This document shows positions 18,819 through 30,416 of a DNA stretch of 30,416 nt, one piece after another. Below the pieces are notes generated by a model. It was not told the DNA's origin and did not search any database. It saw only the letters and a program-made list of their open reading frames with translations. Position 1 is the stretch's first letter, and each line of letters begins with the position of its first letter. The position numbers were made by a program, and so were the translations under genes. The stretch comes from a virus: IMG/VR virus record IMGVR_UViG_3300043444_000099, positions 1-30,416 of that record, one strand, 5' to 3'.

Positions 18819-21800
18819 ATGGCCGTAGGTCGTATTACGGGCCCACTCTTAGCGCAAAACTTGCTAAGAGATGGAGTCAATATAGCAGTCGAAACAGACT
18901 TGCTTTATATCGATGTTGTTAATGGTCGAATTGGTATTAAAACCGATGCTCCTCGTACTGAGTTAGATGTCAATGGTACCTTAACTACTAAGGTTCTTAT
19001 AGCCGATACTGCTACAATCGGTTTAGTCACAATAGAAAGTTCTACATCAAGTAGCACAATTTCTACATTATATGGACCACTTACTGTTGCCCCCGGCGGC
19101 AACGAATGGTTATATGTTAATACAACTGCAAGTTTCCGTGGTGACGTTTATGCTACAGGAAATTTCTTTGCACAAGGAAATATCAAACTAGGTGATACAA
19201 CATCTAGTGACATCATCGAATTACTAGGAGAAGTACAAAGCGATATCCTTCCATATATCAGCAGCGGTACGTTCTCTACATACATCAGCACCTTTACTGG
19301 TCTAACTGTAACTGACTTTTATACCAGTACTGAAATTGTATCTGAATACAGCTTAGGTAACACAAGTAGCTATTGGCAAAATGGTTTCTTAGAAAATATC
19401 TTTACCAAGAGAATTGATACTGCTGGAACTGCTACAGACATACAATTCTTCCCTGATATTCCTTTATTGGAACGAACACTAAACAAGAGCGTTACTATAA
19501 ACGGAGACATCCGTGTCTATGGCGGAAGTCCGATTGGTACGGCTCCAGTAGTTAAAAACATCTTGTATGTTAATGAAAATGGCAGTGATGATAACGACGG
19601 CCGAGCAATGGATTCGAGTCGTGCGTGCCGCACAATTACTGGTGCAACTAGAAGTCCTTATTTTAAACAAGGTACTGTTATCAAAGTAAGTCCGGGATAT
19701 TATGCTGAAGATAATCCTATTGTTTTAAAACCTTACACATCTATTGTAGGTGATAGCTTACGTGCAGTATTTGTAGAACCTCTAAATAAAACTGTTGATT
19801 TGTTCCACGTTAATTCTGGTGTTTATATCACCGGAATGACTATGTTGAATTTACGTCGAGGGGAAGTAACTAGATATGAACCAGGCGGAGCCGGTACATA
19901 TACAACAGGTGCGTACTGTGTTGCTTTTCCTCCTAGTCTAGATAACCCAATTGAATTGTTTCACAGCCCCTACATTCAAAACTGTACCAATCAATCTGGT
20001 CCTTGGCTATACGACGGCACAATGTTTGTTCCAAACCAAACAGTTCAACTACCAATGGTAGTTGCTACGGCTACCTATGCATCCAGTACTACTACAATTA
20101 CCGTAACAATTCAACCTGAAGTTTCTGGACAACAATTAGAAATTGGAATGGCAGTCAATGGATATGGTATCCTTATTGAGGATGACATTCCTGTTGCAAC
20201 TATCGAGTCTATTGAAAACGTTGATGTTAATTTTAGAAATGCAAAACAACTTCTAACTTTGAACAAGGATTTTATCAAAGAAGAAGTTATTACATATATT
20301 AATTACAACTACCCTGATTTAGTTTATGATCAAGACAAATGCAGAAGAGATGCAGGTTATGTCTTAGACGCTCTTATAAATGATGCAATACTTGGAGGCA
20401 ATCAAAAGATTGTTGAAGCGGGTCGTGCATATTTCACAGGCAACAGTAATATTTTAGGAGAAGAACTAATTCCTACTATTGCTGCCTTTGAAAGAATTAA
20501 AACTTTTGCATTTGGTGTAGTATCTAATACTGACTTATCTTCTGTTAAGACTCCTACAAATATTGCAAGTCAAACAATTAATCTAGACCTCACTGGCGGA
20601 GAAATTGCAGAAGATAATATTGTAATGTTGATGGATTTATTAATCGACATTCTGCGTAACAACGGAGGATATGAAAATGCCGCAGCGTTACTAAATGCTA
20701 ACCGCGGATTTATTCAAGCTGAAACTGTTGCATTTGTAAATGAAACTTATGTTGGACAACCAATTCCAAGTTTTGAATACGACAGATCGAAATGTTTTAG
20801 AGATGTTGGATATATTATTGATGCACTGGCAACAGATTTATTATATGGCGGCAATGAACAGTCTGTAGCTGCCGGACAAGCATACAATGCAGGTGCAGTA
20901 ATAGTTGGCGAAGAAGATGAAACTATTGCCGGATTTAATTATCTCGGAATGGTTATTCGAGATGTAATTTTACAAAATGAAATTATTGACGGCTATCAAT
21001 CTACAGTTACTCAAACTACATTGGCCGCAACTGGTACTAATGCCGCAGTAGAGTTAATAACAAGAAATATTGAATCGATTAATTCATTCATTAGCGATGC
21101 AACATATTTTGTTCCAACGGTTTCAAACAGCGGTTCCCCTAGTTCGATTACTGGAATTGTAGATAGTTATAATCTGTTAGTTGCTAATAAGACGTTCTTA
21201 CAACATGAAGTTGTTAATTATATTGATGTAACTTTTACAAACTTAGACTTTGAGTATAATGAAGTTAAGTGTGCCCGTGATACTGGATTAATTTTTGACG
21301 GTCTGCTACTGGACCTAGTGCATAACGGTGAAAGTCAAAGCACATTTGCTGGACTTCAATATTGGAATCAAACTAACAGTGTAATTCCTGGAGAAGAAAC
21401 AACCACAACTAATGCCTTTGCCTACGCAAGAGATATTGCCGCAGATATTATTCAAGGTATTCCAGTAACAGTGTTAGGAACACTGACACAGTATATTAGT
21501 ACCGGTACAATATCCAGTGTAGCAGATGAACTAAAAGAAAAATTTGATGTAGTTATCAATGTAATTACAAGCGGAACCAGTGGCGTAACTGATTTAATTG
21601 AGCCTAATGGTGATATTAATACTTCTAGTAATTACACTATTGCATTAGATCTTTTAATTGCAAACAAAGAATTCATCAAAGACGAAGTTATCTATTGGAT
21701 TGAAGCTAACAAGACATCTGGTTTTACATACGACGATGCTAAATGCAGACGTGATGTAGGATATGTCTTAGACAGTACTGCAATGGATTTAATTCGCGGC

Positions 21801-24800
21801 GGTAACCGTCAGAGTATTCAAGCAGGTGTTTATTACTACGGATACAATAGCACCAGTACAACTCTTGTAAATGAAGTACCTCAAACAATGGCAGCATACA
21901 AGTATATGAAGTCATTGATTGAAAAAGTTTCTCAAAGAATACCTGCAACAAAAACATATCAAACAGAAATTACACAAAATTTTGACTTGCCAGGCGGAAC
22001 AATTGAAGAAGCTAGAGCAATCGGAGAAAATATTGATCTAATTAGAAAGATTATTAAACAAGGTCCAGCGTCAGCTCCAGAAAGAACTCCTATTAGTTTA
22101 ACTGTATCAACTTCGACAAATGTTAGTCGTGCGTACGAGTTATTAAAATTAAACAAAGATTTTATTGTCGCCGAAGTTGTAGAATTTGTTAATAAAACTT
22201 ATATTCAACCTTATGAATTTAGTTACAACGAAGAAAAATGTTTTAGAGATGTTGGATTAATTGTTGATGCGATTGCTACAGACATCATTCGTCGTTCTAA
22301 TGTTAGTTCTATTGATGCTGGATTAGCCTATTGGGAAGGCGCAGTAAGTGTTATTGAAGGTCAATTAAAAGAAACTGCTGGCGCTATTCAATACGCTAAG
22401 AGCATTGCTCTAGATGTCATTGCAAACAATCCTGTAACAAGTTTTTATCAACAATCAGTTGAAACTATTATTCCGGGAACTAGCTCAACTACAATGACTG
22501 TGGTTGTAAGCCAACTTATTAATAGTCAATTATCAGGTGGAGAAGTTGCAAGAGATTTGGTTGATAGTAATTTTAACGCAATCACAACTATCCTACGCGA
22601 TGGCCCTGCGTATGCTCCATTTAGCACAGAAGGGACTTTAACTCAGTTTGTATTAACTTTAAGTACATCAACTATCTCTGCTGCCGAAAATGATATAATG
22701 TATTTTGGCGAAACAACTGTTTATCCTATTGAAGATAAAAATCTTCCAGGCATTTGGAGCGAGAACGGTTATGCCGATCGTAGAATTGATCCAAACGGCT
22801 CGGGCGGCGGAGCATTAGTAGATGGTAATGCACCATCTAGAAGAAGTCCAATTCAATCTTTTGTTTTTGATGCCTTTACACAGATCACACAAGGTGGTCG
22901 CGGCATTCATATTATCAATGAAGGGTATGCACAGTTAGTTTCTGTCTTTACTATTTTCTGTAACGTAGCTGTTGAAACAGACACTGGCGGTATTGCATCT
23001 ATCACTAACTCCAATAATAACTTTGGAGATTTGTGCTTAGTTGCTAAAGGATACGGCAAACGTAAATTTGGTGGTACTGTATATAACCCAGAGAACTTTG
23101 CCTACGACGAGTTGTCAAATACATTTGAAGAAAATGAATATTATCCTCAAGGTTATTTCCCAACACGTCAGCAGGTTTGTATATTTGTTCCTGATCCAGC
23201 AAATAGACCTCACATCAGTTTAGTAATGGAAGTCATTCCGCCTGATCAATATGTTAATTACGATAACGATATTGTTCCGTATGTCAATGAACAAGGTTAT
23301 CCTGGATTTTTAACTGCCGTAATCAATACCAGCACACTATCTACAGGAAGCTATACAATTTCTGGTATAGATGTAACTGGTGCAAGTATTGGACAAACTG
23401 TATATATTAAAGATCAGTTCGGATACGAAGCAACCGATAACGGCGAAGGATTCCGATACATTAGTTCAGGTACAACAATCGTAGATATTGGTTATCAAAC
23501 AATTACTCTAAGCAATCCTATTGCAGAAGGCGGTGGTGAGTACGGAAACGATTTCTACTTTGATATCTATTGTTGTGGCAATGCTTACTATAACATATTG
23601 AGTAGTAAGCCTGCAACTAGCCCATACCCAACAGGTCAAAGTAAAATCCTTGGTCAAGAAACAGAAACAATCGACGCTATCAATCATATGAATGATATTG
23701 TCAATGCTGTAGTTTCTAATGTTGTCTATACAGGAACTTATACAACGGCAGTAAGTCAAACAATTGATACCACATATCCGGGTGGTGCAAACACTGTTGA
23801 GTTTATAAACGATCGTTTAGGTATTATTACTAACGTCATTTTATCAGGACCTCAAGCTGCACCAGAAGTTCAAAGTACTGGAACTAAAGCAGATTACTAT
23901 GCCAGTGCTATTGCTCTGTTAGAGCAGAATAGAATATTCATTCAAAATGAAACAGTTGGGTATGTTGATTCAATTTACGGCGGTTTTACTTACGATGAAG
24001 CCAAGTGTCAGCGAGATGTAGGTTTAATTATTGATAGTATTGCAATGGATATGCTGTATGATGATACAACCCAATCTACTTTTGCAGGACTTCAATATTG
24101 GAACCAAGCTGAATACGTTGATGGAATTGGTGGACAAATTACTACTACCACTGAAGCGATTGCTTATGCAAAATCTCTAGCAGTATCCATTGCTGGAGGT
24201 TCGGCGGGAACAGTAGTCGGACAGCGTTTTGACAATATTCTTGACATATTAGAAAATGGTACTACTGGAGTTAGTGACATTATTGTTGCAAACGCATATA
24301 GAACAACTGACAGTGCTACGCTTGCAGCCTATGCATCGTTACAGTCAAACAAATCTTCTATTCAAACACAGGTTATAAATTGGATTACTGCAAATCATCC
24401 TAGTTTTGTTTATGACCAAGTAACCTGCTCTAGAGACGTTGGGTACATTATCGATAGTGTATGTATAGATTTAATTCACGGCGGCAATAGACAAAGTATA
24501 ATGGCCGGTGTTTATTACTACGGGTTTGATGAAACTAGCAGTGCTATTGCAGGCGAAATACCTCAAACAGCCGCGGCATATAATTTTATTAAAGGTGTTG
24601 TTGGCGATATTATTACCGGTACTCCTATTAGTCCAAAGTATCAAAATGCAGTAGGACAAGTTACTAGTTTAAATCCTGCAACTGCTGACGAGACAGCAAC
24701 TCTGCAATCAAAGATTGATGTAATAACAAATATTATATCTAACGGTCCAACAGTGGCAGAAGAAAGAAGAGCTATAAGTCAAACAATGAACACTAGTACA

Positions 24801-25394
24801 TCTGTTGCTAGAGCATTTGCATTACTAAACGCTAATAAAGATTTTATTAAGGCAGAAGTTATAGCTTATGTAGAAAATGAATTTGGTGGCTTCCAATATA
24901 ATAGACAAAAGTGTCGAAGAGATGTTGGATTAATTATTGATGCACTAAAAGCTGATTTAGCTTCGGGCGGTAATTTTAGATCTGTCGAAGCGGCAAAAAC
25001 TTATTACACAAGAGAAGGAACATACCACATTGTTACATTAGAGGACAACGTAAGAAATCCTTTATTGTTTGTTGATGGTTCTACTGTTAATTTCTATCAA
25101 AGAAGTTATCAATCTGCAAGCGGATACTTGTTCGAGTATTGCGGTGCAGGAACACAGTACGGCGCATTGCCTCAAGTAGGTAGAGTTGATCCTGTACAGA
25201 GCAAAGAAGTAGTTCAGTTAAATAATGGTAAGGTGTTCTTTACTTCAACTGACCAGAATGGTGACTTTAGAATTGGTCCTACTCTAGTTATTAGCCAGGC
25301 AACTGGTGTATTGTCAGGAAGAACATTTGAAAAGAGTTTATTTGCTCAGATGACACCATTCATCTTAGCAGTTGAAACTGGCGGCGGAGATTAA
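18819..25394 (+). CDS. Giant modular fibre/adhesin-like virion protein
   Basis: A 2191-residue protein. Residues 1-20 (AVGRITGPLLAQNLLRDGV) and the following DLLYIDVVNGRIGIKT are the usual N-terminus of large marine T4-like virion proteins. Residues about 247-400 form a beta-helix (DUF1565-like) domain with LYVNENGSDDNDG and YTSIVGDSLRAVF. Five copies of a helical module follow, with the signature K-C-x-R-D at C508, C659, C818, C976 and C1141. A central beta domain (about 1305-1620) contains GSGGGALVDGNAPS. Three more modules follow at C1730, C1870 and C2032. The C-terminal domain (about 2080-2191) has STDQNGDFRIGP and ATGVLSGRTFEKSLF, a conserved ending in this family. It is probably a receptor-binding or whisker protein. 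One of the modules lacks the usual K before C (residue 1870, T-C-S-R-D). Confidence 0.85.
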   Translation: MAVGRITGPLLAQNLLRDGVNIAVETDLLYIDVVNGRIGIKTDAPRTELDVNGTLTTKVLIADTATIGLVTIESSTSSSTISTLYGPLTVAPGGNEWLYVNTTASFRGDVYATGNFFAQGNIKLGDTTSSDIIELLGEVQSDILPYISSGTFSTYISTFTGLTVTDFYTSTEIVSEYSLGNTSSYWQNGFLENIFTKRIDTAGTATDIQFFPDIPLLERTLNKSVTINGDIRVYGGSPIGTAPVVKNILYVNENGSDDNDGRAMDSSRACRTITGATRSPYFKQGTVIKVSPGYYAEDNPIVLKPYTSIVGDSLRAVFVEPLNKTVDLFHVNSGVYITGMTMLNLRRGEVTRYEPGGAGTYTTGAYCVAFPPSLDNPIELFHSPYIQNCTNQSGPWLYDGTMFVPNQTVQLPMVVATATYASSTTTITVTIQPEVSGQQLEIGMAVNGYGILIEDDIPVATIESIENVDVNFRNAKQLLTLNKDFIKEEVITYINYNYPDLVYDQDKCRRDAGYVLDALINDAILGGNQKIVEAGRAYFTGNSNILGEELIPTIAAFERIKTFAFGVVSNTDLSSVKTPTNIASQTINLDLTGGEIAEDNIVMLMDLLIDILRNNGGYENAAALLNANRGFIQAETVAFVNETYVGQPIPSFEYDRSKCFRDVGYIIDALATDLLYGGNEQSVAAGQAYNAGAVIVGEEDETIAGFNYLGMVIRDVILQNEIIDGYQSTVTQTTLAATGTNAAVELITRNIESINSFISDATYFVPTVSNSGSPSSITGIVDSYNLLVANKTFLQHEVVNYIDVTFTNLDFEYNEVKCARDTGLIFDGLLLDLVHNGESQSTFAGLQYWNQTNSVIPGEETTTTNAFAYARDIAADIIQGIPVTVLGTLTQYISTGTISSVADELKEKFDVVINVITSGTSGVTDLIEPNGDINTSSNYTIALDLLIANKEFIKDEVIYWIEANKTSGFTYDDAKCRRDVGYVLDSTAMDLIRGGNRQSIQAGVYYYGYNSTSTTLVNEVPQTMAAYKYMKSLIEKVSQRIPATKTYQTEITQNFDLPGGTIEEARAIGENIDLIRKIIKQGPASAPERTPISLTVSTSTNVSRAYELLKLNKDFIVAEVVEFVNKTYIQPYEFSYNEEKCFRDVGLIVDAIATDIIRRSNVSSIDAGLAYWEGAVSVIEGQLKETAGAIQYAKSIALDVIANNPVTSFYQQSVETIIPGTSSTTMTVVVSQLINSQLSGGEVARDLVDSNFNAITTILRDGPAYAPFSTEGTLTQFVLTLSTSTISAAENDIMYFGETTVYPIEDKNLPGIWSENGYADRRIDPNGSGGGALVDGNAPSRRSPIQSFVFDAFTQITQGGRGIHIINEGYAQLVSVFTIFCNVAVETDTGGIASITNSNNNFGDLCLVAKGYGKRKFGGTVYNPENFAYDELSNTFEENEYYPQGYFPTRQQVCIFVPDPANRPHISLVMEVIPPDQYVNYDNDIVPYVNEQGYPGFLTAVINTSTLSTGSYTISGIDVTGASIGQTVYIKDQFGYEATDNGEGFRYISSGTTIVDIGYQTITLSNPIAEGGGEYGNDFYFDIYCCGNAYYNILSSKPATSPYPTGQSKILGQETETIDAINHMNDIVNAVVSNVVYTGTYTTAVSQTIDTTYPGGANTVEFINDRLGIITNVILSGPQAAPEVQSTGTKADYYASAIALLEQNRIFIQNETVGYVDSIYGGFTYDEAKCQRDVGLIIDSIAMDMLYDDTTQSTFAGLQYWNQAEYVDGIGGQITTTTEAIAYAKSLAVSIAGGSAGTVVGQRFDNILDILENGTTGVSDIIVANAYRTTDSATLAAYASLQSNKSSIQTQVINWITANHPSFVYDQVTCSRDVGYIIDSVCIDLIHGGNRQSIMAGVYYYGFDETSSAIAGEIPQTAAAYNFIKGVVGDIITGTPISPKYQNAVGQVTSLNPATADETATLQSKIDVITNIISNGPTVAEERRAISQTMNTSTSVARAFALLNANKDFIKAEVIAYVENEFGGFQYNRQKCRRDVGLIIDALKADLASGGNFRSVEAAKTYYTREGTYHIVTLEDNVRNPLLFVDGSTVNFYQRSYQSASGYLFEYCGAGTQYGALPQVGRVDPVQSKEVVQLNNGKVFFTSTDQNGDFRIGPTLVISQATGVLSGRTFEKSLFAQMTPFILAVETGGGD
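20238..22434 (+). repeat. Five tandem 155-165-residue modules in the first giant
   Basis: Each module reads: helix LLxxNKxFIxxEVxxY, a linker, Y-D/N-x-x-K-C-x-R-D-x-G-x-I-x-D, a Ser/Ala-rich helix with AGxxYW or AGxYYY, then GE, T and a helix AxxYxK. The cysteines are spaced 151, 159, 158 and 165 residues apart. Confidence 0.85.
23910..25018 (+). repeat. Three further modules in the first giant
   Basis: The same module recurs after the central domain, with cysteines at 1730, 1870 and 2032 (spacing 140 and 162 residues). The last copy runs into the C-terminal domain instead of its usual final helix. Confidence 0.82.
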
Positions 25395-25805: not shown

Positions 25806-28800
25806 ATGCCACGTTTATTAAGTAATAGAAAACCGGTAGCACGTCCGGGCGATCTCAAAGAGAATCGCTGGGACTATTTAAATCTACAACAAGCACAACC
25901 TGCTCTAGGTCTCGCACCTGAAGCTAATACAGGTTTCACTTTAGAAACAGATGAGAATGGCAAGGTAACTTTTACTAATACACTGGGAAAATTAGAGTTT
26001 GATAATCAAACTATTGCTGGAACTTTACCCGGCGAAGATATTAATATTAACGGCTCAATCAATGGCGGTAATATTGTACTAACTCCATACCAAACTGCAA
26101 GAGTTGCGGGTAATTTGTCTGTTGAGGGCGACGCTGAAGTTCAAGGTGACTTTACTGTACAGGGTATTCCTCGTGGTACAGCGCCACTAGTAAGCAATAC
26201 ATTATATGTTACACCCGATGGCAATGACGAAAACGACGGAACATCGATGGACTCTACACGAGCATGCCGCACTATCAGTGGTGCTGTTCGTAGCCCGTTC
26301 TATCAACCGGGTACAGCTATTAAGGTTATGGCTGGAACTTATTTTGAAGATAACCCTATTCCGTTAAAGCCATACACTTCTGTTGTTGGAAACGACTTAA
26401 GAACAACATTTGTCGAGCCACTTAACAAAGATCTTGACTTATTCCATGTTAATTCTGGAGTTTATATCGCACAGATGCAGATGCGTAACCTACGCCGGGG
26501 CGCAGTTGAGCGCTATGCACCGGGCGGAGCGGGAACTTATACTACAGGTGCTTACTGTGTAGCATTTCCGCCTAACTTAGAAAACCCAATCGACGTATAT
26601 TACTCTCCTTACGTACAAAACTGTACCAACCAAAGTGGTCCATGGCTAAAAGATGGAACTATGATGGTTCCAAACCAAACAGTTCAGATTCCATTAGCTG
26701 CCGGAACAAGTACCTGGTCTGCAGGAGCGGATCAAATTACAGTAACATTATACACAGGTACTGTCGTTACTGGTATGGCGTTAAACGATGCAGCCAACGA
26801 AGGCTACAGGAATGCACAACTTCTATTAAAACAAAATAGAAAATTCCTACAGGATCAAACTGTTGCTTATGTAGAAGATGCGTTTCCTAGTTTAGTTTAT
26901 GATCAAGCAAAGTGCTATAGAGACGTTGGCTACATTGTCGATGCTGTTGCGGGAGACGCTCGATTTGGAGGCAATAAGAGAAGCATTGAAGCCGGTTTAG
27001 CTTACTGGAAGGGAACTCAAACATTAATTCCCGACGAGCAAGTTGAAACAATTTCTGCTATCAACTATCTAAAGAGTATCTCGTTAGAAATCATTAACAA
27101 TACAACTGTTACAAATATTTTTAACACACTGTCTAGTCAAACAATTAATTTAAATTTAGACGGCGGCTCAGTAGTTTATACTCGTGCATCTAATAGTTTT
27201 GATTTAATTACTAGTATTATTGCAGAAGGTGAAAGTGCAGCACCAGACGAACCAACACCGGATTTGTTAGGATTAATTTATCCTACTGGTTTAAGTCCGA
27301 ATGATGTTAATGTTGCAACAACTGTAACTGATGTTACACAACTAACAACCAATACATACCTTGTTACACTAAGCACTTCTACAGTAAGTCCTAGTGATAA
27401 CGCTACAATTTATTTTGGTTACACTACAACATATCCTTACTTAGATGCAGATGTTCCTGCAGAATGGTCTTCTGATGCACAAGACGGATATGTGGATCGT
27501 AGATTAGATCCAATTGGATCTGGTGGCGGTGCCCTTGTTGATGGTAACGCTCCTAGCTTACGTTCTCCAATTCAGTCGTTCGTATTTGACGCCTTCACAC
27601 AGTTAAATCAAGGTGGTATCGGTATTCACATTATTAACAACGGCTACGCACAGCTGGTATCGGTCTTTACGATTATGTGTAGTCAAGCTGTTATTGTTGA
27701 AAATGGTGGTATTGCATCTATTACAAACTCAAACGCTAACTTCGGCGACACCTGTTTAACAGCTAAAGGACTTGGAAAACTTGCGTTCCAAGGCTTTGTA
27801 GTTAATCCTCCGTTCCCAACCAACGTACCTAACGGGGAATACTACCCATTAGGCTATTGGCCGCAACGACAAGTAATGGAAGTATTCATTCCAAGTGATA
27901 GAGATCGTCCGCACATTGGCCAAGTTATGGAAGTTGTTCCGCCTGACACATATTTAAATTACGAAGGCGACAGAATTCCATTTATTAATGAAGCAGGCTA
28001 TCCTGGATACCTAATTGCAACTGTTAATACTAACACTATTTCTACTGGTAGTTTTATAATTAATGACGTTGATGTAACCGGTGTTGCCATTGGTCACACA
28101 TTGTACGTAAGAGATGTATTAGGTAATGAGACACATCCTGTCACTGGACAGCCTTACGTAACTACTGGCACACAAGTTGTCGATGTTAATTTCCGTCAGA
28201 TTGTTTTAGACAGACCTATCTTAACAGGTTATTCTGATACAGATAATCCTAACTATTTTAATTTGTACTTCTGTGGAAGTGCTTACTATACAGTATTGTC
28301 TAGCAGTATTGACAGTTCTCTAGCATCTACCGTTACTACAGAAGTAACGTTAGTCCCCGGCCAAGAAACAACAACATCTCTAGCAATTAGCTATGCTAAA
28401 AAACTAGCACTTCGAGTAATTCAAAACGATCCGATTGACGGATTTGTTTATAATCAAGCAAAATGTAAAAGAGATACAGGCTTAATTGTTGATGCTATAT
28501 CTCTAGATTTATTATATCCAACATCTGAACTAAGTCAGAGTAACTTTGCTGGATTACAATATTGGAATCAAGAAAATTATGTTGGAACAATTGCCAACGA
28601 GATAACAACTACTACTAATGCGGTTCAGTATATTAAAGAACTTGCCGCAGAAATTGTTCAAGGGATTACTACTGGAACAAGATATCAAAGTACAGTCACA
28701 CAAAACACAGGGTTGCCATTGGCAACTGCTGTCGAAGCTCAGCTTATTTCTAATGACTTTGATGCAATCATAGACATTTTAGTCGATGGTGTTTCTGGAG

Positions 28801-30416
28801 TAACTGATAAAATTGTTCCTAACGGAGAACAAACTGCTGAAGAAAATATTGCAAGAGCATATTCATTGCTAACTGCAAATAAGGCATATATTCAAACAGA
28901 AGCAGTAGCATTTGTTGAATATACTAAAACTGTTGGATTTACATACGACTCTGAAAAATGTTATAGAGACGTAGGTTACATGGTTGATAGTGTTGCATTT
29001 GACTTACTACACCCAAATGAAAGCGGCCCAAGTAACAAGCAAGCCATTCAAAGTGGCGTCTATTACTATGGCTATATTAGTACCAGCACATCTATTGTAG
29101 GCGAAATTCCTCAAACAACTGCGGCTTACAATTATATTAAAGATCTAGTACCTTACGTAGTCAAAGGAATAACAACATCAACTTATCAAACATACATTGA
29201 TCAAGTAACTGATTTAGATCCAGGAACTGATGATGAAGTTACAACAATTCAAACATACATTGATCATATTATTAATATCATCAATGTGGGACCTAGCGCA
29301 GCCGAAGTTAAAGTTCCTATCAGTTTAACACAGTCGTCTGACTTAGATGTTTATAACGCTTATAGAATGTTAAATGCAAACAGAGAATTTATTCAAGAAT
29401 CCGTAATTGCATATATTAACGAAACTTACGAATCAGGAACATATCAATCAACATATAATCAAGTATTTGATGAAACACTAACTGGTGGTATTGACGCTGT
29501 AGGAAGTCTAGGCGACAAGTTTGATATTATTTCAGGAATTGTTATAAACGGCGCAGACAGCAGTCCGGATATTGTACGTCCTCGCCAGTATGTTGATGCC
29601 AATCAAAATATTTTAAATGCTAAAAAACTTCTTGACAAGAATAGATTATTCATCCAAGCAGAAACTGTTGCATTTGTTGATAGTATTTGGCCAAGTAAAT
29701 TTAGCTACGACCCAGTTAAGTGTTCGAGAGACACTGGACTAATTGTCGATAGCCTTGCACAAGATATATTATTTGATGGAACAAGTCAAAGTACATTTGC
29801 TGGTATTCAATACTGGAATCAAGGACTAACAGTTATCCCAGGAGAGCAAACAACTACAACTCGTGCAGTTAGCTATCTAAAAGATCTTGCACAAAAAATT
29901 GTTCGCAATGACACATCCGGACATAGATATAGTTTCTCTTATGATCAAACTAAGTGTGCTAGAGACACTGGATTGATTGTTGATGCTCTAGCACAAGATT
30001 TATTATTTAACGGCACAAGTCAAAGTACGTTCGCCGGAATTCAGTACTGGAATCAAGATAGCTATGTAGGTAGCATTGCTAGCGAACTTACTACAACAAC
30101 AAATGCAATTGAATATGTTTCATATCTTGCACAACGAGTAGTTCAAAATATTACAACAGGTACAAGATATCAAAGTACAGTTACACAAAATACTTCTTTA
30201 TCTGCGGCAACTGCTGAAGAATCTAGTTTTATCGAAGCTGAATTTAACATTATAACTAATATTCTTTCAACAGGCACCGTTGGTGTAACCGATGAAATTA
30301 TTCCAAACGGCATTGTTGCATTAACTGATGTCGATGTTAATCGTGCATATGACATTTTAATAGCAAACAAAGAATACATTCAAACTGAAGCTATTGCTTA
30401 TGTTGAAAGTACAAAA
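25806..30416 (+). CDS. Second giant modular virion protein (partial, runs off the window)
   Basis: The frame is open from the ATG at 25806 to the last base (1537 codons) without a stop, so the C-terminus is missing. A weak AAGAGA precedes the start. The N-terminus is its own (PRLLSNRKPVARPGDLKENR), not the AVGRITGPLL type of the first giant. From about residue 135 the two proteins are homologous: beta-helix with TLYVTPDGNDENDG, then one module (C370), the central domain with GSGGGALVDGNAPS, then modules at C887, C1052, C1306 and C1384, and a further one starting at the edge. The 1306-1384 spacing of 78 is half the usual length. It is a paralogue of the first giant, probably part of the same fibre or adhesion apparatus. 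Confidence 0.85.
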   Translation, partial: MPRLLSNRKPVARPGDLKENRWDYLNLQQAQPALGLAPEANTGFTLETDENGKVTFTNTLGKLEFDNQTIAGTLPGEDININGSINGGNIVLTPYQTARVAGNLSVEGDAEVQGDFTVQGIPRGTAPLVSNTLYVTPDGNDENDGTSMDSTRACRTISGAVRSPFYQPGTAIKVMAGTYFEDNPIPLKPYTSVVGNDLRTTFVEPLNKDLDLFHVNSGVYIAQMQMRNLRRGAVERYAPGGAGTYTTGAYCVAFPPNLENPIDVYYSPYVQNCTNQSGPWLKDGTMMVPNQTVQIPLAAGTSTWSAGADQITVTLYTGTVVTGMALNDAANEGYRNAQLLLKQNRKFLQDQTVAYVEDAFPSLVYDQAKCYRDVGYIVDAVAGDARFGGNKRSIEAGLAYWKGTQTLIPDEQVETISAINYLKSISLEIINNTTVTNIFNTLSSQTINLNLDGGSVVYTRASNSFDLITSIIAEGESAAPDEPTPDLLGLIYPTGLSPNDVNVATTVTDVTQLTTNTYLVTLSTSTVSPSDNATIYFGYTTTYPYLDADVPAEWSSDAQDGYVDRRLDPIGSGGGALVDGNAPSLRSPIQSFVFDAFTQLNQGGIGIHIINNGYAQLVSVFTIMCSQAVIVENGGIASITNSNANFGDTCLTAKGLGKLAFQGFVVNPPFPTNVPNGEYYPLGYWPQRQVMEVFIPSDRDRPHIGQVMEVVPPDTYLNYEGDRIPFINEAGYPGYLIATVNTNTISTGSFIINDVDVTGVAIGHTLYVRDVLGNETHPVTGQPYVTTGTQVVDVNFRQIVLDRPILTGYSDTDNPNYFNLYFCGSAYYTVLSSSIDSSLASTVTTEVTLVPGQETTTSLAISYAKKLALRVIQNDPIDGFVYNQAKCKRDTGLIVDAISLDLLYPTSELSQSNFAGLQYWNQENYVGTIANEITTTTNAVQYIKELAAEIVQGITTGTRYQSTVTQNTGLPLATAVEAQLISNDFDAIIDILVDGVSGVTDKIVPNGEQTAEENIARAYSLLTANKAYIQTEAVAFVEYTKTVGFTYDSEKCYRDVGYMVDSVAFDLLHPNESGPSNKQAIQSGVYYYGYISTSTSIVGEIPQTTAAYNYIKDLVPYVVKGITTSTYQTYIDQVTDLDPGTDDEVTTIQTYIDHIINIINVGPSAAEVKVPISLTQSSDLDVYNAYRMLNANREFIQESVIAYINETYESGTYQSTYNQVFDETLTGGIDAVGSLGDKFDIISGIVINGADSSPDIVRPRQYVDANQNILNAKKLLDKNRLFIQAETVAFVDSIWPSKFSYDPVKCSRDTGLIVDSLAQDILFDGTSQSTFAGIQYWNQGLTVIPGEQTTTTRAVSYLKDLAQKIVRNDTSGHRYSFSYDQTKCARDTGLIVDALAQDLLFNGTSQSTFAGIQYWNQDSYVGSIASELTTTTNAIEYVSYLAQRVVQNITTGTRYQSTVTQNTSLSAATAEESSFIEAEFNIITNILSTGTVGVTDEIIPNGIVALTDVDVNRAYDILIANKEYIQTEAIAYVESTK
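28375..30416 (+). repeat. Modules of the second giant, including shortened copies
   Basis: K-C-x-R-D signatures fall at residues 887, 1052, 1306 and 1384. The copies at 887 and 1384 lack the usual N-terminal LLxxNKxFI helix and join directly to the preceding helix. Another module's N-terminal helix (LIANKEYIQTEAIAYVE) begins at the window edge. Confidence 0.8.

Follow-up and report, generated by a model that had tools for sequence, protein, structure and literature searches.

What is the helical module that recurs along a giant tail-fibre protein of a jumbo phage, and why is the same short cysteine motif kept from copy to copy? The question is raised by IMG/VR virus record IMGVR_UViG_3300043444_000099, of which positions 1 to 30,416 were analysed (hereafter the window). 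The window is part of a jumbo T4-like phage and carries genes for the portal, the prohead protease, the major capsid protein and small virion-like proteins, followed by two giant fibre genes. The first of these (18819..25394, plus strand) is an open reading frame for 2191 amino acids (aa) that bears the modules and matches a PHROG tail fibre family with an expectation value (E) of 3.8e-103. A preliminary description had noted eight copies of a helical module with a nearly invariant K-C-x-R-D core in this protein, without a named domain for it. We conclude that the module is very probably a shortened domain of the phycobiliprotein (bilin-binding globin) superfamily; that it carries a covalent bilin, for now putative, we rate at about an even chance. 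The superfamily is known, and its location in a phage fibre is new.

The 2191-aa protein contains eight C-x-R-D cores, with the Cys at aa 508, 659, 818, 976, 1141, 1730, 1870 and 2032, as against a mean of 0.03 and a maximum of 2 in 2000 shuffled versions. A profile built from the modules of other contigs alone recognised seven complete modules (domain E 1e-40 to 1e-60), one N-half and one C-half, and matched none of 200 shuffled fibre proteins. The count of eight thus holds for the cores, but the copies are unequal, seven being complete and the eighth an N-half, and a C-half without a core has to be added. Five further cores, missing from the earlier list, lie in the adjoining gene (25806-30416), and C-x-R-D is present in all 13 window modules. 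The window and 76 IMG/VR loci, 77 sequences in all, supplied about 670 modules, in which Cys, Arg and Asp are conserved at 97%, 98% and 99%, respectively, the loci having been fetched by a pattern containing KCxRD, which fixes one module per locus only. The Lys formerly included in the motif is found in 12 of the 13 window modules but in 67% of modules overall. Asp(+14), Tyr(+30) and Asn(-26; 94%) hardly vary either. The mean number of Cys per module is 1.2, and a second conserved Cys for pairing is absent. In phycobiliproteins and in the BBAG proteins the Cys of CxRD is the covalent bilin attachment site, and the Arg and Asp hold the chromophore (PMC10151467).

Scanned as a whole, the fibre protein matched Pfam family PF00502 from the chromophore Cys to the C-terminus, with 34 bits (3.4e-8) and a family cut-off of 22.2 bits. 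Single window modules all stayed under this cut-off (best 18.4 bits), and single modules of two relatives, L025 and L028, exceeded it (25.3 and 27.1 bits). When 145 diverse modules were scanned singly, PF00502 matched 32 of them and every other family two at most; the NCBIfam scan gave no match over a cut-off. Of the 19 matches that a 145-module phage profile gave in the full set of PDB sequences, 18 were phycocyanin alpha (best E 0.005), and a profile restricted to the 13 window modules likewise ranked phycocyanin first; the whole fibre protein compared directly with PDB sequences gave no match. Cyanobacterial CpcA, searched against 50,697 phage records with E up to 10, matched 22 records, exclusively of Synechococcus phages, and the proteins behind them are tail fibre, virion or unnamed proteins among the matches listed. 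Profile-profile alignment with hhalign against 181 phycobiliproteins reached P 6e-7 over 97 columns, with a probability of 92 for the real pair and at most 4.7 after column shuffles. When the motif was kept fixed and the rest of 613 modules was shuffled, the median score against a phycobiliprotein hidden Markov model fell from 8.8 to 2.5 bits, the real modules scoring higher in 70 of 70 loci.

Module 4 was modelled with AlphaFold (stretch 21612-22106), template-free and from phage sequences only. The model has a predicted local distance difference test (pLDDT) score of 95.3 and a predicted template-modelling (TM) score of 0.90, and consists of six helices with no strands, which bears out the helical character first ascribed to the module. 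Foldseek against the PDB placed phycobiliproteins at ranks 1-49 (TM 0.57-0.66) and a globin at rank 50. The preliminary description had held that a clear match to a well-described domain would speak against its claim of a module without a name; with PF00502, the PDB profile search and Foldseek such a match is at hand, and that claim no longer stands. It is because the Pfam match, the PDB profile, the CpcA search, the motif-kept shuffles and the AlphaFold and Foldseek results are taken together that we regard membership of the superfamily as very likely.

The distribution of the modules among named phages follows that of the bilin lyase CpeT. The two are concordant in 24 of 24 phages: both are present in 14 (S-PM2, P-HM1, P-HM2, P-SSM4, P-SSM7, P-RSM4, S-RSM4, S-ShM2, Syn1, Syn9, Syn19, Syn33, S-SM1 and S-SSM5) and neither in 10 (P-SSM2, S-SM2, S-SSM7, S-TIM5, S-CRM01, Ma-LMM01, HTVC008M, P-SSP7, Syn5 and T4). 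The CpeT matches of P-SSM7 and S-ShM2 are weak and pass the cut-off only together with in-frame neighbours; CpeT is listed for both phages in Table 3 of PMC3037559. The absence of modules from S-SSM7 was predicted from the same table ahead of the search and then found. Among the 20 cyanomyoviruses in this set the association has a Fisher's P of 3e-5, with no correction for common descent. S-PM2 and Syn1 have cpeT and the module gene no more than 1.5 kb apart, in a cassette of GC730, cpeT, a 2OG-Fe oxygenase gene, GC734 with the modules, and gp12; in P-HM2 cpeT stands just ahead of the fibre genes, and one module protein is gp7. Because cpeT shares a cassette with the module gene in the former phages and precedes the fibre genes in the latter, these arrangements point to the fibre as a candidate CpeT substrate.

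Two other features of these cassettes were noted. The 2OG-Fe(II) oxygenase gene (T4-GC 104), which has cpeT on one side and the module-bearing fibre gene on the other (S-PM2 165307-165888, Syn1 20572-21144), might modify the fibre. The S-PM2 record AJ630128 (locus L284) shows 16 tRNA features inside the module gene GC734 (168556-173383); ARAGORN found no tRNA within GC734 and nine around cpeT, and the features are probably misplaced in the record.

We propose that in at least some modules the Cys would hold a linear tetrapyrrole (bilin) covalently, with Asp and Arg positioning it. In marine cyanomyoviruses the phage CpeT would supply or load the bilin, some phages adding heme oxygenase and PebS or PcyA. 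In lyase-less phages the bilin might attach itself as in BBAGs, which bind bilins without a lyase (PMC10151467), and its effect would be to stabilise, space or light-tune the fibre. That some or all modules carry such a putative pigment with one of these effects seems to us marginally better than an even bet. An extended version would have pigmented virions in many T4-like phages: phage heme oxygenase together with PebS, PcyA or PcyX would synthesise the bilins, CpeT or self-attachment would place them on fibre and baseplate modules, and the pigmented fibre would sense light and contribute to adsorption where this depends on light, as in cyanomyoviruses like P-HM2. Adsorption is light-dependent in P-HM2 and light-independent in P-SSP7 (PMC7112961), and several marine cyanomyoviruses adsorb light-dependently (PMC2984593); P-HM2 has modules and P-SSP7 none, two phages that also differ in morphology. 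This extended version appears unlikely, and its light-sensing part is speculation.

In this and the following two paragraphs we bring together what weighs against a bilin-carrying superfamily domain, the rival explanations and the distribution among hosts. The hhalign probability is as high as 86 for block shuffles in which the motif stays together, and masking the motif leaves P 0.0075 in an unchanged register; most of the profile-profile signal therefore comes from the motif. The best Foldseek E is about 2e-3, above 1e-3. The first ~45 phycobiliprotein residues (helices X, Y and A, which serve the alpha-beta dimer) are absent, about 44 residues preceding the Cys instead of 83, and the module is without the Leu-Arg conserved behind the phycobiliprotein motif, Asp (or Glu) standing at +9 in place of the invariant Arg93. 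Because these helices are absent and this Arg is replaced by Asp, the module is not classed as a light-harvesting phycobiliprotein. An unrelated helical repeat sharing C-x-R-D by chance would fit the weight of the motif and the scores of single window modules under the Pfam cut-off, but it leaves without explanation the similarity outside the motif seen in all 70 loci, the first place held by phycocyanin alone in the whole-PDB profile search, and a fold obtained from phage sequences only that leads Foldseek to phycobiliproteins first; such convergence we consider very unlikely.

As to the pigment, Arg is retained in just 34 of 67 marine cyanophage modules. Among the giant marine cyanophage proteins of gp7 type (loci L214-L267), the motif has changed in places to CxDD or CxTD, and the Cys is lost from a few modules; Asn(-26) and Tyr(+30) stay almost invariant in these proteins. 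T-type lyases are known for the Cys-155 site, Cys-84 sites using other lyases (PMC2327270). CpeT was found in none of 24 window-like, module-rich contigs, and CpeS, tried as the lyase in place of CpeT, in none of 47 environmental contigs, nearly all of them module-bearing. P-SSM2 and S-SSM7 have neither CpeT nor modules, yet possess PebS and Ho1 (genes as given in PMC3037559). An enrichment of modules in bilin-reductase (FDBR) contigs was rejected, modules occurring in 2 of 25 of these compared with 16 of 25 capsid-matched controls, the former being mostly short and the latter biased to structural regions. Cassettes of heme oxygenase (HO) and FDBR occur in 3 of 24 module contigs, none adjoining the modules; in L287 (7414-8602), L288 (7324-8527) and L289 (7316-8378), large module contigs in which no psbA was found, the oxygenase gene stands beside the reductase gene. 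A module descended from a bilin-binding globin might also be free of pigment and serve to extend the fibre as a bead with a structural or adhesive role, its Cys, Asp and Arg forming a buried polar core with Asn(-26), Asp(+14) and Tyr(+30). The latter two are conserved as well as the Cys, and Asn(-26) almost so; modules are common among phages without a lyase or a detected bilin gene, some persist in cyanophages after losing Cys or Arg, and arrays of one to many modules are spacer-like. This explanation is quite possible, even if a structural core by itself predicts neither the retention of the exact chromophore-contacting residues at 97-99% nor the concordance with CpeT. The Cys had previously been suggested to serve in packing, in a disulfide to a partner chain or as a ligand site. 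The ligand site is the best supported of these: about one Cys per module in a protein on the outside of the virion would suit a disulfide or plain core packing without ligand, but the C-x-R-D surroundings of the Cys are those in which relatives bind bilin, and its module offers no second conserved Cys as a partner, which makes that option very unlikely.

With respect to the host, phage isolates with matches are cyanophages only, in 207 records for one module and 381 for the whole protein, and the annotations of the matched proteins read fibre, gp7, baseplate or structural protein. Modules also occur in 16 of 25 environmental contigs with a window-like capsid, picked blind to modules. The capsid and portal of the window are closest to those of jumbo phages of Proteobacteria, phages which are not among the module matches, and among the environmental contigs, nearly all module-bearing, psbA was found in 0 of 47 and NblA in 0 of 42. 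Because the capsid and portal resemble those of proteobacterial jumbo phages and no psbA, NblA or CpeS was found, the host of the window phage may lie outside the cyanobacteria. The module was considered as a marker of cyanophages only and rejected: this is true among isolates, but such a capsid and portal, and relatives in which no psbA or NblA was found, speak against it.

If the modules carry bilin, pigmented virions would give phage bilin genes a function in the virion. The role of phage bilin synthesis genes has been termed a mystery or enigmatic, chiefly for hosts without phycobilisomes (PMC3037559, PMC11480375), and that of phage CpeT unresolved (PMC3037559). A phycobiliprotein-like virion domain that accompanies CpeT as described above is a concrete candidate substrate for this lyase, and bilin on some phage fibres would offer a testable reason for the bilin genes. 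The literature searched yielded no previous account of virion proteins with phycobiliprotein domains, most subscription papers being outside the search, and for this reason the superfamily match raises rather than lowers the interest of the finding. Beads in a phage fibre would be an unusual use of the superfamily, and domains that hundreds of cyanophage records label simply as tail fibre, gp7 or structural protein now receive a fold.

The module array occupies one loop of a beta-helix domain of the fibre, here called the platform. Its first half (19563..19988, plus strand, as are all window features given here; aa 249-390) corresponds to residues 27-168 of the uninterrupted platform of relative L064, and its second half (22803..23051; aa 1329-1411) to residues 188-270. 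The halves are contiguous in several relatives (L058, L063, L064, L065 and L078), the gap measuring 19 residues in L064 and 938 in the window protein, with five modules inside; in other relatives the insert in this loop ranges from ~200 to ~2000 residues. Arrays of variable length are inserted at a single site of the platform. The platform model has a moderate pLDDT of 69, and its best Foldseek matches are phage tail fibres and pectin-lyase-type beta-helices; together with the PHROG match, the beta-helix model identifies the protein as a T4-like tail fibre with a beta-helix platform. We know of no module array in a loop of a right-handed beta-helix phage fibre or tailspike structure.

The 2191-aa protein thus comprises five modules, a beta domain, and then a C-half, two modules and an N-half. 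By the profile without window rows, module 1 lies at 20217..20663 (CxRD codons from 20340; E 2.4e-40), module 2 at 20661..21119 (CxRD 20793; E 7.1e-44), module 3 at 21141..21608 (CxRD 21270; E 4.8e-51) and module 5, the last of the first array, at 22101..22619 (CxRD 22239; E 4.6e-45); module 4 extends from 21621 to 22094 (CxRD 21744; profile E 9.6e-56). The second array is opened by the C-half without a CxRD core (23634..23870; aa 1606-1684; profile positions 81-158, E 4.9e-15), followed by module 6 (23886..24293; CxRD 24006; profile E 1.7e-42), where PF00502 matches aa 1727-1809, by module 7 (24300..24767; CxRD 24426; E 1.2e-60 without window rows) and by the N-half with the eighth core (24786..25037; CxRD 24912; aa 1990-2073; profile positions 3-86, E 1.2e-31). 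The two halves at the ends of this array might pair and close it like the velcro of a beta-propeller. A C-terminal domain common among relatives (25044..25391; 70-98% identity in many related loci) completes the protein.

The second fibre gene (25806..30416), open at the window end, has the same beta-helix platform according to open reading frame, motif and profile searches and platform alignment. Its modules, located by CxRD cores and profile, lie at 26793-27260, 28437-28823, 28833-29321, 29598-29930 and 29931-30308. Some of them (28437-28823, 29931-30308) are without the first helix, and two cores are just 78 residues apart. In this gene it appears that parts of modules have been shuffled as units, the breakpoints lying close to profile positions 36 and 80-86.

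Several known systems resemble parts of this fibre. Its platform shares the fold of beta-helix phage fibres and tailspikes, such as that of Agrobacterium phage 7-7-1 (PDB 9rkv), and adds the array that it holds. In ApcE, the core-membrane linker, a phycobiliprotein domain likewise lies within a large scaffold protein, its bilin-binding domain is among the Foldseek matches (4xxk), and it attaches its own bilin (PMC2327270); unlike the phage fibre, ApcE has a single such domain, belongs to the thylakoid phycobilisome and has no beta-helix fibre. The BBAGs of heterotrophic bacteria, compared here by their published description (PMC10151467), belong to the same superfamily and have CXRD in BBAG-1 and BBAG-3. 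Bilin attachment without a lyase is possible for them and their hosts need not be cyanobacteria, both of which fit the phage modules; they are stand-alone proteins in bilin gene clusters, whereas the phage modules are fibre repeats, with HO-FDBR cassettes in the few contigs mentioned. With phycocyanin alpha (CpcA) and the other phycobiliproteins of PF00502 the modules share the fold, the order of helices from helix B to the C-terminal helices and the Cys-x-Arg-Asp site. They differ in the missing N-terminal helices, a shorter B-E loop and Asp for Arg93, and in standing in tandem inside a virion fibre, where they are known here from sequence and model.

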